In this document: positions 47,547 through 55,261 of the stretch, one piece after another
Position numbering within the stretch: position 1 is the first letter of the stretch
Layout: every line of letters begins with the position of its first letter
NCBI RefSeq assembly: GCF_000376845.1
Contig: NZ_AQXY01000022.1
Coordinates: 1-64,000, forward strand
DNA length: 64,000 bases
Reading direction: 5' to 3'
Origin: Thioalkalivibrio sp. ALE14
GTDB lineage: Bacteria > Pseudomonadota > Gammaproteobacteria > Ectothiorhodospirales > Ectothiorhodospiraceae
Position numbers and translations under genes: made by a program
The notes under the pieces: model-generated
The model's input: the letters and a program-made list of their open reading frames with translations, nothing else
The model's database searches: none
Told to the model about the DNA's origin: nothing

Positions 47547-48263
47547 TCAGTCCCAGCCGCCCTCGTCCAGTGTCCGGTCCAGTGCCTCCAGGTCGAGGAG
47601 AGTCGCCATCTTCTCGCGCTCCACTCCGGCCAGCCAGGGCAGGCGCCGGCGGTGGCTGCGCCAGCGCAGCGAATCCGGTTCGATCACGCGGGTTCCGTGG
47701 ATCGCCCGGCAGGCCAGCGCAAAGCGGGAACCGGCCAGGAACACAACCTGACGCGCGGTGTCGGGTTCGTAGTCGCGATCTTCCGGAGTGACCACTGCGG
47801 CCAGATCGATCAGCTGTACCCGCCCCTGCTTGGTGTCGGCCAGTCCAAGGTACCAGACCGAATGATTCGGGGTCGGCCGCACCTCCAGGCTGTCCAGCGG
47901 CGCCACGCCGCCCAGGGCCTGCAGCGGTGCGAGCAGGGTCAGATTCCCGGCCTCGATCACCAGGGCGGAGAAGGGTTGCTCGGGCCGCGGGTAATCGCGC
48001 TCCGCGGGATCGGCCGGGGGTGCCGGCGGGGCCTGTGTGACGACCGCTTCAGGTGTTGCCACTTTCACCGGGTTCGCTTCGCGGACCGGGGCTTCCACCG
48101 ACTCCGCCGGCGGGATTTCCGGTGCGGGCAACGCCGGTTCCAGAAGGTCCGGGCGCAACAGCGAGCGGACCGGTTCCGGTTCGTCCAGAAGGCTGCCGAA
48201 ATAGTCGTCCAGCGCGTCCGGTTCGGCCTTCAGGGCCAGGTTGTCGACTGTGGATCGTTTCAT
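47547..48263 (-). CDS. parP: ParP-like CheW-domain protein
   Basis: A 238-aa protein: an acidic N-terminus (DALDDYFGSLLDEPEP), a P/A-rich linker to about residue 95, and a C-terminal degenerate CheW domain (FSALVIEAGNLTLLAPLQALGGV ... GRVQLIDLAAVV ... FALACRAIHGTRVI). It is coupled to the ParA-like gene by a 4-bp overlap. In Vibrio, ParC-ParP place chemotaxis arrays at the cell pole, ParP binding CheA and ParC. Confidence 0.85.
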   Translation of the reverse strand: MKRSTVDNLALKAEPDALDDYFGSLLDEPEPVRSLLRPDLLEPALPAPEIPPAESVEAPVREANPVKVATPEAVVTQAPPAPPADPAERDYPRPEQPFSALVIEAGNLTLLAPLQALGGVAPLDSLEVRPTPNHSVWYLGLADTKQGRVQLIDLAAVVTPEDRDYEPDTARQVVFLAGSRFALACRAIHGTRVIEPDSLRWRSHRRRLPWLAGVEREKMATLLDLEALDRTLDEGGWD

Positions 48264-49060
48264 CCGCGCCGCCTCCGTTCATGGGGTTCGGACAGCTGTC
48301 CGCCGATGGCCTCCAGCAGGTCCGAATACGCCAGCACGCCGCGCGCGTCCGGAATCATGAAGCACAACGGCTGACCGGCGCTGGAGGCGTCGCGGAACTT
48401 GGTGTCCACCGGGATGACGCCGGGCCAGACATCGTCCCCGTACAGTCGGCGCAGTTCCGCCAGGGCCTCGTGCGCCGCGCGTGTGCGGCGATCGAACAGC
48501 GTCGGAATGATCCGGTACTGCAGCTCGGCCTTGCGCGACTTCTGTACCATTTTCAGTGTGTTGATCATCCGTTCAAGCCCCTTCAGGGCGAGGAATTCGG
48601 TCTGCACCGGCACCAGCAGCTCGTCACAGGCCGCCAGCGCATTGACCATCAGAACCCCCAGCATCGGCGGGCAGTCCAGCAGCACGTAGTCATACTGCCC
48701 GGAGACCTTCTCCAGCGCATGGCGCAATACCAGCCCCATGCCGCTTCGGGTCCCCAGCTGCCGATCCAGCGTGGCCAGCGCGGTACTGGCGGTCAGCAGG
48801 TCCAGACCCGGGAAGCGCGTCTCGCGAATGAGCCCGTTCGGGTCCGGATCGGCCCCCTCGGCACACTGGCTGAAGAGCTCGTAGACCCCTCGTGTCGCGG
48901 TCTCCGGGTCGTGCCCGAAGTACGCGGTCAACGAACCATGCGGGTCCACGTCCACCAGCAGCACGCGCTGCTCCGGCCCGGAAAGCAGTCCGCCCAGTGT
49001 CACCGTGGTGGTCGTCTTGCCCACCCCGCCCTTCTGGTTCGCAACCGCCCAGACCTTCAT
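48260..49060 (-). CDS. parC: ParA-like ATPase of the chemotaxis cluster (ParC)
   Basis: A 266-aa ParA/MinD-family ATPase with the deviant Walker A KGGVGKTTTTV (about 11-21), VLLVDVDPHGSLT and YDYVLLDCPPMLG. Its place between motD and the CheW-like gene, not next to a parB, marks it as the ParC class that positions chemoreceptor arrays at the cell pole. It overlaps motD and parP by 4 bp on each side. The symbol is also used for a topoisomerase subunit, which this is not. Confidence 0.88.
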   Translation of the reverse strand: MKVWAVANQKGGVGKTTTTVTLGGLLSGPEQRVLLVDVDPHGSLTAYFGHDPETATRGVYELFSQCAEGADPDPNGLIRETRFPGLDLLTASTALATLDRQLGTRSGMGLVLRHALEKVSGQYDYVLLDCPPMLGVLMVNALAACDELLVPVQTEFLALKGLERMINTLKMVQKSRKAELQYRIIPTLFDRRTRAAHEALAELRRLYGDDVWPGVIPVDTKFRDASSAGQPLCFMIPDARGVLAYSDLLEAIGGQLSEPHERRRRG

Positions 49061-50711: not shown

Positions 50712-51827
50712 TCAGCAGAACCCCTTGACCAGGGCGGGACCGATCTCGGGCAGCGGATACACGTGATCGGTCAATCCGGCTTCTGCCACCGCCGCCGGCA
50801 TGCCGTACACCACGCAGGTCGCCGCGTCCTGCGACCAGACGTGGGCGCCTGCGCCCTTCAGCGCGCGCACGCCCTCGCGCCCGTCCGCACCCATGCCGGT
50901 CAGCACCACCGCGAGGACCTGTCCGCGCAGCGCATCCACGGCGGAGGTGAAGGCCGCATCGACGCTCGGCTTGTAGATCGTTCCCAGCGGGCTCTCCGCA
51001 ATCCGCACGTGCGTCTGGCTGCCACGCTCCAGGGTCATCTGCATGCCACCGGGAGCCAGTAGCGCCACGCCCGGCTTCAGAGCGTCGCCGTCCTTTGCCT
51101 GGCGCACCTCGATGTTGCACATGGCATTGAGGCGGTCGGCGAAGGCCGGGGTAAAGCTCGCCGGCATGTGTTGCACCAGGACGATCGGTAGCGGGAATGT
51201 CGCCGGCAGCGGCTTCAGTACCTCCTGCAGGGCCACCGGCCCCCCCGTAGAGGTTCCGATCAGGACCGCGCGCAGCTGGCGCAGGGGCGTCGGGGGACGG
51301 GTGCTCGTAACCGGCGGTTGTTGCCTGGCGGCGTCGGCGGCTGCCTGACGATCGGCCTCCTGCCGCCGCGCGGTCGGCCGCGCCTCGCGGGCCGGCGTAC
51401 TGGTACCCGGGGCACTCGCCGAGCGCGCGCGGCTGCGCGACAACGAGCGGACCCGCCGCCGGAGCAGCATGCGAGCGCTGTCCTCGTCCCCCGCCATGTC
51501 GCTGAAACGCTTGGGCAGGAAATCCACGGCCCCGGCCTCCAGCGCGTCCAGGGTCGCCTGGGCACCCTCCGTGGTCAGGCTGGAGAACATCAGGATCGGC
51601 CGCGGGTGCTCGGCCATGATCTTGCGAACCGCCGTGATGCCGTCCATGACCGGCATCTCGATGTCCATGGTCACGACATCGGGGTCGAGCTCCCGGACCT
51701 TGGCAATCGCCTGTTCGCCGTTTTCGGCGGAACCGACCACCTCGATACCCGAGTCGGAATCCAGAATCTCCGCGATGCGGCGGCGAAAGAATCCCGAATC
51801 ATCGACTACCAGAACCCTGATCGGCAT
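50712..51827 (-). CDS. cheB: Chemotaxis methylesterase/deamidase CheB
   Basis: A 371-aa two-domain regulator. The receiver domain (1-120) has the acidic pair at 9-10 and the phosphorylation site Asp55 (TMDIEMPVMDG). After a basic, variable linker the CheB catalytic domain shows IGTSTGGPVAL (Ser), VLVQHMPASFT (His) and GMGADGREG (Asp). It removes methyl groups from receptors for adaptation. cheR is not in the window. Confidence 0.97.
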   Translation of the reverse strand: MPIRVLVVDDSGFFRRRIAEILDSDSGIEVVGSAENGEQAIAKVRELDPDVVTMDIEMPVMDGITAVRKIMAEHPRPILMFSSLTTEGAQATLDALEAGAVDFLPKRFSDMAGDEDSARMLLRRRVRSLSRSRARSASAPGTSTPAREARPTARRQEADRQAAADAARQQPPVTSTRPPTPLRQLRAVLIGTSTGGPVALQEVLKPLPATFPLPIVLVQHMPASFTPAFADRLNAMCNIEVRQAKDGDALKPGVALLAPGGMQMTLERGSQTHVRIAESPLGTIYKPSVDAAFTSAVDALRGQVLAVVLTGMGADGREGVRALKGAGAHVWSQDAATCVVYGMPAAVAEAGLTDHVYPLPEIGPALVKGFC

Positions 51828-51829
51828 CC

Positions 51830-53950
51830 TCAGCCCTCGCTCGTGCGCGATGCACGGCGCGGCCGACCGGACATCTGCAGTTGCCGCATCAGGATGGTCA
51901 CCAGATCGGAGACATCCAGGATCAGCGCAATGCCGCCATCGCCGGTGATGGTGGCACCCGCCAGGCCCTTCACGCCCTGCAGGTTCTGACCCAGCGGCTT
52001 GATGACAACCTCTTCCTGCCCCACCAGGTCATCCACCACCAGGCCCACCTTGCGGTCGGCGGTGTGCACCACGACCACGTGCGCGTCCTTGCGTGGCTCG
52101 GGCTCGTGTCCCGGCTTCAGCCAGCGCTTGAGGTAGTGAATCGGCAGCGCCTGCTTGCGCACGATGATGACTTCCTGGTCATCCACGTAGTGCGTCTTGG
52201 TCAGGTCCAGGTCGAGGATCTCGGAGACCGAAGCCAGCGGGATGGCGAAACGCCGACCGTCGAGGATCACCATCAGCGCGGGCAGGATCGCGAGCGTCAG
52301 CGGCAGTTTTACCCGCAGCGTGGTACCGACACCGATCTCCGATTCAATATCGATCATGCCATTGAGTTGCGAGATCTTCGTCTTGACCACGTCCATCCCG
52401 ACCCCGCGGCCGGACACATCGGAGATCTCGGACTTGGTGGAGAACCCGGCCATGAAGATCACGTTGAAGGCCTCGCGATCGGTCATGCGCTCGGCCAGTG
52501 CGGGTTCCATCAGGCCCTTTTCCACGGCCTTGCGGCGCAGGGCCTGCGGGTCCATGCCGCCGCCGTCGTCCTTGATCAGCAGCGCGATGTGGTCACCTTC
52601 CTGGGCGGCTCCCAGCACCACCGTACCCTTGCGCGGCTTGCCGGCGGCCTCGCGAACATCCGGTGTCTCGATGCCGTGGTCCACCGCATTGCGCACCAGG
52701 TGCACCAGCGGATCGGACAGTGCCTCGACCAGGTTCTTGTCCAGATCGGTGTCCTCGCCGAAGATCTCCAGTTCGATCTCCTTGCCGAGGTTCCGCGACA
52801 GGTCGCGGATGACGCGCGGGAATCGGTTGAAGACCTTCTTCACCGGCTGCATCCGGGTCTTCATCACCGAGGTCTGCAGGTCCGAGGTCACCAGGGCCAG
52901 GGAGCTGATCGCCTTCCCCAGTTCGTCATCGACATGCTGCGAGCGCAGCATGCTCAAGCGGTTGCGCACCAGCACCAGCTCGCCCACCAGGTTCATGATC
53001 TCGTCGAGGCGTTCGGTGTCGACGCGCACGGAGGTCTCCCCTTGCGGCGCCGAACGTCCGCCACCGTCGGCGCCGCCCCCGCCGCCGGCACGGGCCCCGC
53101 CCCCACCCTGGCCGCCAGCTGCCGCGCCTTCCGCAGGCGCTGCGGCCTTGGCCGGCTCGGATGCCTCGGGCTCGGGGCTGGATGCCTCGGGCTCCGGTGA
53201 TTCAACGGCCTCGGAACCGGCCGCCGGGATCGCACCGGTCGCCGCCGGCCCGGCCCCCTTGGCCTGCAGCTCGTCCAGCAGGTTTTCGAATTCGTCGTCG
53301 CTGATCAGGTCGCCGGAACCACCGGCATCCTCCGTGTCCGGCGCCTCGGCGGATTCGGCCGCATCACCCGAGTCCACGGGCTTCGGCGGCTGGTCGCCGT
53401 GCAGGCTGTCCAGCAGGGCCTCGAACTCGTCGTCGGTAATCTCGTCGTCGGCGCCGACCATGGCTTCGCCCGCGGTCGGGGCTTCGGCGTCCGGGGTCGG
53501 TTCCGGCTCGGGCTCGGGCTCCGGGGCAGGAGGCGGCGCAGCCGGCTCGGCCGCGACATCCTCGTTGTTCGCCATGCGCCGGAGATTCTCCACCAGGTCC
53601 GCTTCGGCGGGCGTGGGATCCACACCGGAGCGCAGGTCCCCGAACATCACGTTCAGGGTGTCGAGCACCCGCAGCATGGTGTCCATCAGGTGGCTGTCGG
53701 CCCGGCGCTCGCCATTACGCAGAAGGTTGAACACATCCTCGGCGTGGTGGCACACGGTCACCAGCGGATCCAGGCTCAGAAACCCGGCACCACCCTTGAT
53801 GGTATGGAAGCTGCGAAACACCGCATTGAGCAGATCCCGGTCATCCGGGTTCTGCTCCAGGTCGATGAGCTGCTCGTTGAGCCCCTCCAGCAGTTCCCCG
53901 GCCTCGATCAGGAAGTCCTGCAGGATTTCGTCATTGGGGTCGATGGCCAT
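51830..53950 (-). CDS. cheA: Chemotaxis histidine kinase CheA
   Basis: A 706-aa kinase. P1 has the phospho-accepting His49 (FRSFHTIKGGAGF). Residues 130-300 form a long acidic linker with two copies of an I-(T/S)-DDEFE-x-LLD-x-L motif (171-185 and 216-230). Then come dimerization (LDEIMNLVGELVLVRNRL), the ATP-binding N box HLVRNAVDHG and G boxes DDGGGMD and GRGVGMDVV, and the C-terminal CheW-like P5. It phosphorylates CheY and CheB. Confidence 0.97.
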   Translation of the reverse strand: MAIDPNDEILQDFLIEAGELLEGLNEQLIDLEQNPDDRDLLNAVFRSFHTIKGGAGFLSLDPLVTVCHHAEDVFNLLRNGERRADSHLMDTMLRVLDTLNVMFGDLRSGVDPTPAEADLVENLRRMANNEDVAAEPAAPPPAPEPEPEPEPTPDAEAPTAGEAMVGADDEITDDEFEALLDSLHGDQPPKPVDSGDAAESAEAPDTEDAGGSGDLISDDEFENLLDELQAKGAGPAATGAIPAAGSEAVESPEPEASSPEPEASEPAKAAAPAEGAAAGGQGGGGARAGGGGGADGGGRSAPQGETSVRVDTERLDEIMNLVGELVLVRNRLSMLRSQHVDDELGKAISSLALVTSDLQTSVMKTRMQPVKKVFNRFPRVIRDLSRNLGKEIELEIFGEDTDLDKNLVEALSDPLVHLVRNAVDHGIETPDVREAAGKPRKGTVVLGAAQEGDHIALLIKDDGGGMDPQALRRKAVEKGLMEPALAERMTDREAFNVIFMAGFSTKSEISDVSGRGVGMDVVKTKISQLNGMIDIESEIGVGTTLRVKLPLTLAILPALMVILDGRRFAIPLASVSEILDLDLTKTHYVDDQEVIIVRKQALPIHYLKRWLKPGHEPEPRKDAHVVVVHTADRKVGLVVDDLVGQEEVVIKPLGQNLQGVKGLAGATITGDGGIALILDVSDLVTILMRQLQMSGRPRRASRTSEG

Positions 53951-53996: not shown

Positions 53997-54773
53997 CTAG
54001 AAGCCCAGGCTCGAAAGCAGATCGTCCACCTCGTCCTGTCCTTGAACGACATCTGCGCCGGAATCTTGAGTCTTCGGCACGCTGGGACCATGACCCTTGC
54101 GGTCCGCTTCGCGGTCTTCCTCGCTGCGCTCGAGCGACGCCTCGGCCGCCTCGACCTGCTCCATGCGCCCGCTGGACAGCCGGATCAGGGTTACCAGGTT
54201 CTCTTCCAGGTCGGTGACCAGCTGAATCACCCGGCGGATCACCTGGCCCGTAATATCCTGATAACTCTGCGCCATCAGGACCTCGGACAGCAGGCGACGC
54301 AACTCCTCGGTGTCCTCGCCCGCCTGGGCAAAGAACGAGTCCAGCTCGCGGGCGAAATCCCGGAACTCGTCCACCGAGAGCTGGCGGTTGCGAAACCGCG
54401 TCCACTTCGCGGTCAGATCGGCCGCCTGCTGGCTGAACGATTCGGCGATCGGTAGGCTCGATTCGATCGCATTCATCGTGTCGTGGGCCGCCTGCTCGGT
54501 CATCGTCACCACGTAATTCAGGCGTTCCTTTGCATCGGGAATCTCGGCCTGGGTCAGTTCGACCAGGCGTGAATCCCCGCGGAAGCTCTGCAGGGCCTCG
54601 TGGAGATCGCGGGTCAGCTTGCCCAGCTCGTCGAAGAGTTCGCGGTCATACGGCCGCGCGAGATCCTGGACCAGGGCGCGGGCACCGGCGTCATCGCCCG
54701 CCTCCAGCGTCTGCACCAGTTGCCGGGCAAGCTCGAGCTGGCCATCGCGTGGTGGGTGTTCCTGTTCAGTCAT
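53997..54773 (-). CDS. cheZ: Protein phosphatase CheZ
   Basis: A 258-aa mainly helical protein that dephosphorylates CheY-P. The catalytic motif AQSYQDITGQVIRRVIQLV is present in the long hairpin helices, and the extreme C-terminus QDEVDDLLSSLGF is the CheY-binding peptide. ATG 54773 starts MTEQEHPPRDGQ with GAGG upstream; a longer frame to 54815 has no support. Confidence 0.95.
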   Translation of the reverse strand: MTEQEHPPRDGQLELARQLVQTLEAGDDAGARALVQDLARPYDRELFDELGKLTRDLHEALQSFRGDSRLVELTQAEIPDAKERLNYVVTMTEQAAHDTMNAIESSLPIAESFSQQAADLTAKWTRFRNRQLSVDEFRDFARELDSFFAQAGEDTEELRRLLSEVLMAQSYQDITGQVIRRVIQLVTDLEENLVTLIRLSSGRMEQVEAAEASLERSEEDREADRKGHGPSVPKTQDSGADVVQGQDEVDDLLSSLGF

Positions 54774-54868
54774 GGGGAGCCTCTTGCTGATGCGGCGCCG
54801 AAGGAGCCGGGTCACGTCCGCCGTTGCAGGCGTAACGGGCGGCGTACGTACTCAACACAGGGAATCAC

Positions 54869-55261
54869 TTATCCCTGGGCTTCAATACGTTCGAAGATCT
54901 TGTCGATCTTTTCCTTCAACGTCTCGGCGGTAAACGGCTTGACCACGTACCCATTCACACCCGCCTCGGCGGCCTCCACGATCTGGTCGCGTTTGGCCTC
55001 GGCGGTCACCATCAGGACCGGCATGGACTTCAGGTTCGGGTCCGCCCGGACCGCCTTCAGCAGGTCGATGCCCGGCATGTTCGGCATGTTCCAGTCGGTG
55101 ATCAGGAAGTCGAAGTCGCCATTTTGCAGCATGGGCAGCGCGGTGCTGCCGTCATCGGCTTCCTGGGTGTTGTTGAAGCCGAGATCGCGCAAGAGGTTCT
55201 TGATAATGCGCCGCATCGTGGAAAAGTCGTCCACGATGAGAATTTTCATTCCCTTGTCCAC
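54869..55261 (-). CDS. cheY: Chemotaxis response regulator CheY
   Basis: A single receiver domain of 130 aa (GTG start at 55261 with GGAG upstream) or 126 aa (ATG at 55249, as in Pseudomonas [14 protein letters not shown]). Key residues in the longer numbering: acidic pair 11-12, phospho-site Asp56, Thr86 and Lys108 (GYVVKPF). It binds the flagellar switch to change rotation. Confidence 0.96.

Follow-up and report, generated by a model that had tools for sequence, protein, structure and literature searches.

Candidate CheY-docking helices repeated in the P1-P3 linker of CheA kinases without a detectable P2 domain

The N-terminus of the motor protein FliM is a known ligand of CheY, and the alpha4-beta5-alpha5 face of CheY binds the FliM N-terminus, the CheZ C-terminus and the P2 domain of CheA. 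Binding of CheY by the CheZ C-terminus is stated in a figure legend (PMC7750401). According to a survey, P2 of E. coli makes phosphotransfer to CheY much faster, and more than half of the surveyed CheA kinases are without a P2 domain (PMC10782961); the sections consulted offer no explanation of how P2-less CheAs recruit CheY. PMC7534058 puts a further element of CheA, LID, between P2 and P3. LID of Vibrio CheA reportedly binds ParP and is confined to CheAs with ParC and ParP (PMC5706961, PMC7534058).

Here we describe a short acidic motif repeated in the P1-P3 linker of a large group of CheAs. We hold, with modest confidence, that a tandem array of short predicted CheY-docking helices stands in for P2 in these kinases, and that the same copies may also serve as the ParP LID.

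Two related predicted helices in the linker of one CheA

The window is a stretch of 64,000 nucleotides from Thioalkalivibrio sp. ALE14, the minus strand of which carries polar-flagellum and chemotaxis genes. In its CheA, the Hpt, H-kinase_dim, HATPase_c and CheW domains are all above their Pfam cut-offs and in the order of a CheA histidine kinase, with no Pfam match to P2 between P1 and P3. The features of the gene are as follows:

51830..53950, minus strand: cheA, 706 aa; by Pfam, P1 (Hpt) 8-98, P3 306-365, P4 412-552, P5 558-684
53036..53545, minus strand: P1-P3 linker, aa 136-305, rich in Pro, Ala and Gly; predicted from AlphaFold2 and sequence to be disordered outside both motifs
53396..53440, minus strand: motif copy 1, aa 171-185, ITDDEFEALLDSLHG (profile match 53384-53449, E 1.7e-10)
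53261..53305, minus strand: motif copy 2, aa 216-230, ISDDEFENLLDELQA (profile match 53246-53314, E 2.1e-10)

The original prediction held that residues 171-185 and 216-230 of CheA are near-copies, and this is borne out: the two stretches share 34 of 45 bases and, counted by eye, 10 of 15 residues, and the span it had marked, 53261-53440, takes in exactly both copies. The motif consensus is SDEITDDEFEALLDQLHGKG, with the class form [IM]-[TS]-[DE]-[DE]-E-F-[ED]-x-L-L-D-x-L-H-G. Both copies are present in the CheA of Thioalkalivibrio thiocyanoxidans, its nearest named neighbour in the core tree (94% core identity), where each copy is by eye nearer to its window counterpart than the window copies are to each other; the duplication therefore predates the split of these two. 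Running AlphaFold2 on the window CheA with a 31-row alignment gave confident P1 and P3-P5 domains and a stretch from residue 136 to 307 mostly below pLDDT 50. Between residues 128 and 311 the model contains only two helices, H173-184 and H218-230, which are the two motifs, and no P2 fold was seen in the modelled linker.

The genes around cheA encode the proposed ligands and partners:

54869..55261, minus strand: cheY, the proposed ligand (PF00072; PRK10610 CheY above cut-off)
50712..51827, minus strand: cheB (Pfam); its receiver domain may be a further ligand
53997..54815, minus strand: cheZ, the CheY-P phosphatase (PF04344)
54000..54038, minus strand: C-terminal CheY-binding peptide of CheZ, QDEVDDLLSSLGF, with the pattern of the CheA motif
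47547..48263, minus strand: parP, with a CheW-like AIF domain and Trp201 (PF01584 and an alignment of 29)
48180..48218, minus strand: N-terminal motif of ParP, DALDDYFGSLLDE, a separate ParP family motif and no copy of the CheA motif (alignment of 29 and profile scan)
48260..49060, minus strand: parC, a ParA-like ATPase (Pfam and ParC search)

Aligned with the CheY chains 2fka and 2che, the window CheY is near enteric CheY in its C-terminal half, and much of the enteric sequence is retained across the putative docking face, as that face is generally located. The FliN of the same genome (L001 626-1207, minus strand, partly past the window end) has 193 aa and a long acidic N-terminal part.

Conservation of the motif and absence of P2

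A search of 274 genomes of the same class with the CheA protein matched 175, from which 120 CheA loci were taken; the GTDB class in question takes in Betaproteobacteria too. Among the 107 best-scoring loci (L032-L138), 102 had a usable P1-P3 linker, L096, L100, L127, L131 and L136 being left out for linkers under 60 aa in cut or split genes. The cheA of L131 looks split: an upstream 426-aa ORF carries two motifs (presumably with P1 and the linker), and the kinase core lies in another ORF. With a strict pattern, 100 of the 102 linkers yielded 242 copies in all, where 200 shuffles averaged 0.075 per set, and a profile trained on the strict-pattern copies found 264 copies in all 102, against none in 100 shuffled sets. 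One copy occurred in 10 linkers, two in 35, three in 48, four in eight and eight in one, with a median start-to-start distance of 41 residues. The eight-copy linker (L088, G033) is 558 residues long, its copies being followed by a long PAKPAAA repeat.

Among 80 named loci, all 34 of the window-CheA type carried the motif and none of the 46 others did, a split made partly after seeing the linkers; 19 further loci were taken because of a motif match, and L280, a 10-base placeholder, went unused. Because neither the split nor the motif-chosen loci are independent, our conclusions rest on a criterion that uses the kinase core alone: a P3-P5 region (aa 306-684) of at least 400 bits and a linker of at least 60 aa, with loci chosen for the motif excluded. 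At or above this core score, at least one copy (range 1-8) was present in 127 of 127 CheAs (97/97 plus 30/30 named, the latter outside profile training); below it, the motif was present in 6 of 18 and in 4 of 47 named CheAs. Named carriers include Vibrio, Photobacterium, Shewanella, Pseudomonas, Marinobacter, Colwellia and Stenotrophomonas. Run against 398 genomes of the phylum, the motif profile matched 62, all of the same class as the window; among the matches listed, the frames measured 625-780 aa, except four shorter ones in G391 and G543 (226-531 aa). A metagenome-assembled genome labelled Klebsiella pneumoniae (L195), probably wrongly, encodes a CheA of the motif type close to a ParC relative. 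Across 50 aligned CheAs, the E, the F and one L of the motif copy are invariant, and the motif columns are the only near-invariant columns of the linker. The label F6 for a CheA type comes from PMC7534058; the motif-bearing set presumably corresponds to it.

The absence of P2 extends to these relatives. Eight further CheAs (two from Pseudomonas, one each from Vibrio, Photobacterium and Shewanella, and three others) gave no P2 match at Pfam E values up to 10. In 50 CheAs of the motif type, neither P2 model was among the 25 most frequent Pfam families, so that each matches at most one of the 50; outside the motif type, PF07194 was present in 14 of 44. A quick core tree (103 rows, 25 loci left out, P2 labels assigned by eye) gathered 42 of 45 motif rows into a single group (support 95) that contained nothing else, while L138, L139 and L216 fell outside it; 25 of 27 P2 rows formed another group, with two elsewhere, and in no protein of the tree did motif and P2 occur together. 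The genome G192, in which ParC and ParP are undetectable, encodes two CheAs (L068, L149), one of the motif type and the other with a linker that looks like P2.

PMC11978298 describes, on the basis of Pfam, five domains in the CheA of P. putida, one of them CheY-binding; our scans of two Pseudomonas CheAs other than that of P. putida found no such domain. In PMC12410967, CheY-EYFP overlaps CheA-CFP at the pole of P. aeruginosa, which suggests recruitment of CheY in a genus whose tested CheAs (P. aeruginosa not among them) lack P2. The same paper states that P. aeruginosa has no parC/parP-related genes, in contrast to two Pseudomonas loci of our set (L199, L201), which have parC and parP relatives near cheA.

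Likeness to CheY-binding peptides and the choice of ligand

A BLOSUM62 column-score profile of the motif was slid along alignments of CheA, CheB, CheW, CheY, CheZ, MotC, ParC, ParP and FliM in three widths (13, 11 and 10 columns; 2530 sliding windows at 13 columns). In all three widths the FliM N-terminus and the CheZ C-terminus took the top two places outside CheA. At 13 columns FliM LSQDEIDALLHGV scored 18.7 and CheZ SGQDEVDDLLSSL 15.6; the lead of CheZ over the next window was small in two of the three widths (15.6 versus 14.8; 12.6 versus 12.2). Identity-weighted scoring was less clear, placing FliM 7th, the ParP N-terminus 9th and the CheZ C-terminus 16th, with other segments of CheZ and ParP ranked higher. 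In the reverse direction, a scan with the gammaproteobacterial FliM N-terminus (10 columns) put the three motif columns of CheA first (25.6, 25.5 and 18.4; next 14.3), and in 12 P2-type CheAs the best FliM-like window scored 15.8 and lay outside the linker. The CheA motif has the E-[IVF]-[DE]-x-L-L pattern in a short helix, as judged from the scans and AlphaFold2 and less clearly from identity weighting. We infer that it is a peptide of the FliM-N/CheZ-C type for the alpha4-beta5-alpha5 face of CheY; so short a likeness could also arise by convergence, which is possible for any acidic amphipathic helix.

These scans divide what had been predicted for the neighbouring proteins. The CheZ C-terminus (54000..54038), claimed to share the pattern, does so, as the first or second non-CheA match. 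The FliM N-terminus, which that prediction did not name, is matched by the CheA copies equally well or more closely. The ParP N-terminus, claimed as another copy, is present as a sequence but ranks 19-40 of about 2550 windows (z 2.5-3.0), which is background, and 29 ParPs give it a consensus of its own, LxxQxxALxxYLDxLLxE, without the acidic run and without an E preceding the hydrophobic residue; the idea that ParP carries the CheA motif was accordingly rejected. The proposal that the CheA copies recruit CheY is favoured by the likeness to the CheZ tail and FliM and by the lack of a detectable P2, and the inclusion of ParP in the same set falls away.

ParC and ParP were searched for in 45 whole genomes, namely those whose cheA locus was without ParC or ParP, plus controls. 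Nine genomes of seven families, 91-100% complete, keep the motif without an orthologue-level ParC and ParP (G001, G010, G022, G025, G026, G154, G170, G172 and G192); a tenth without both, G088, is only 88% complete. Eight of the nine have 1-4 copies (G001 four, G154 and G192 three each; degenerate in G010 and G025), and in G172, where the gene is split, a separate ORF holds two. The best ParC scores in the nine were 139-147 bits, where the weakest orthologue scored 214 and the strongest other ParA 162; ParP scores were 26-39 bits, the level of CheW. The absence of ParP rests mainly on that of ParC, because some genomes with a ParC orthologue also show ParP at CheW level only (e.g. G111, G156, G267). 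Eight par-less linkers averaged 2.1 copies, versus 2.6 in 94 others, par status having been checked in part of these. In two of the par-less genomes, G170 (98% complete) and G022 (100%), the motif occurs with no CheZ match, and CheY and CheB are encoded next to cheA. Since the motif persists without detectable ParC, ParP or CheZ while CheY and CheB stay, we put CheY first as a ligand and ParP second, the two not being mutually exclusive; ParP may be a second ligand of the motif copies.

That the motif is instead solely the ParP-binding LID, through which the ParP AIF domain holds CheA in polar arrays with CheY uninvolved, strikes us as unlikely, yet it is the alternative with most to commend it. 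LID is placed in the same linker and is said to occur only with ParC and ParP (PMC7534058, PMC5706961). With the motif columns alone near-invariant in the linker, any conserved LID would have to be built from the motif copies. All 29 aligned ParPs share one tryptophan, W201 in the window ParP, which is probably the counterpart of the CheA-binding W305 of Vibrio ParP. The nine par-less genomes weigh the other way, for they keep the motif with no detectable ParC or ParP, where LID is said to be confined to CheAs with both, and this reading leaves both the likeness to FliM and CheZ and the coincident absence of P2 unexplained.

Our preferred reading, in which the helices dock CheY, also fares better than three others. 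The copies might be SHOCT-like or generic self-association helices bridging CheA subunits or neighbouring core units: 45 of 50 CheAs give a weak Pfam match to SHOCT (E up to 1), and at least one relative with four copies passes the cut-off (29 versus 27 bits). We judge this very unlikely, as the matches are confined to the second half of the model (within positions 11-27 of 28), the window CheA reaches only 14.7 of the 27 bits required (positions 12-24 of 28), and the nearest windows outside CheA are CheY-binding peptides. (Pfam GemA also matches 28 of the 50.) Docking of CheZ, by which the phosphatase would be brought to the array as by CheA-short in E. coli, seems more improbable again; 86 of 107 loci do have a CheZ relative of at least 100 bits close to cheA, and some of the rest are truncated, but motif-bearing CheAs occur with no CheZ match in G101 and G148 as well as in G170 and G022. 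Least credible, and already contradicted, is a neutral low-complexity spacer produced by slippage. The rest of the linker is indeed rich in Pro, Ala and Gly and copy number runs from 1 to 8, but the motif residues are invariant or nearly so across distant families, and nothing else between copies is near-invariant.

Proposed role and comparison with known systems

On the reading we favour, each acidic amphipathic helix would dock on the alpha4-beta5-alpha5 face of CheY, and perhaps on the CheB receiver too. Docked CheY would be concentrated beside the P1 phospho-histidine, with 1-8 flexible helices holding it near P1 and so doing the job of P2; several copies would raise the local supply of CheY. 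In genomes with ParC and ParP, all or some of the copies may double as the ParP-binding LID. Should the helices behave as FliM does, they might prefer phosphorylated CheY, and the product would then be kept at the array.

It is possible, if short of probable, that this holds for a whole class of CheAs in polar-flagellated gammaproteobacteria (including Vibrio, Pseudomonas and Shewanella), with a multivalent array of FliM/CheZ-mimic helices replacing P2 and ParP, where present, sharing the helices, and that Campylobacterota may have a second mimic. Six campylobacterotal CheA linkers (L203, L207, L221, L223, L242, L248) contain a conserved MSxEEVEAEIERLL-like stretch and, by eye, nothing like P2. 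The conserved stretch is duplicated in two Sulfuricurvum and is the best FliM-like 10-column window of these CheAs, though not the best in longer windows, which is no more than suggestive of a FliM-like mimic. Eight betaproteobacterial linkers with no visible P2 (L217, L218, L230, L231, L239, L252, L258, L261) share a conserved PDWxxLHxAVTG-like segment, and most also carry GRR-type repeats; the segment resembles by eye the N-terminus of their own FliM (...DALLKGVTGE), but the profile scan did not single it out, and an extension to Betaproteobacteria was rejected.

The literature searched (for motif strings, P2-less docking and disordered linkers) holds no description of the motif, and its one match for EIDALL is on archaella; Ringgaard 2014, reportedly the paper that defined LID, may show part of it. 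If our reading is true, a large class of P2-less CheAs would gain a concrete, mutable answer to CheY recruitment, one CheY peptide code would link kinase, phosphatase and motor, the loosely described LID would become a defined sequence, and evolution could tune the supply of CheY through the number of copies.

Among the known systems, the Vibrio LID shares with the motif array its linker and its CheA type, and the two must overlap if LID is conserved; LID is described as restricted to ParC/ParP systems, whereas the motif also turns up where neither ParC nor ParP is detectable. SHOCT (PF09851) has, as its consensus is generally given, a similar ITxEEFE-like core, with its model matched in part only. 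P2 (PF07194, PF09078) occupies the same site between P1 and P3 and would have the same CheY/CheB docking role, but P2 is a folded domain, whereas the window CheA linker has short helices in a disordered stretch with no fold seen by Pfam or AlphaFold2. The CheZ peptide, the best non-CheA match at 11 columns, has D-E-hydrophobic-D-x-L-L-x-x-L-G in common with the CheA motif; unlike the motif it is C-terminal, present in one copy and part of a phosphatase. The FliM peptide LSQDEIDALL, the best non-CheA match at 13 and 10 columns, follows the same class order as the CheA motif (hydrophobic-S/T-x-acid-E-hydrophobic-acid-A-L-L); it differs in occurring just once, at the very N-terminus of a motor protein, and in continuing after LL with HGVD where the CheA motif has D-x-L-H-G.
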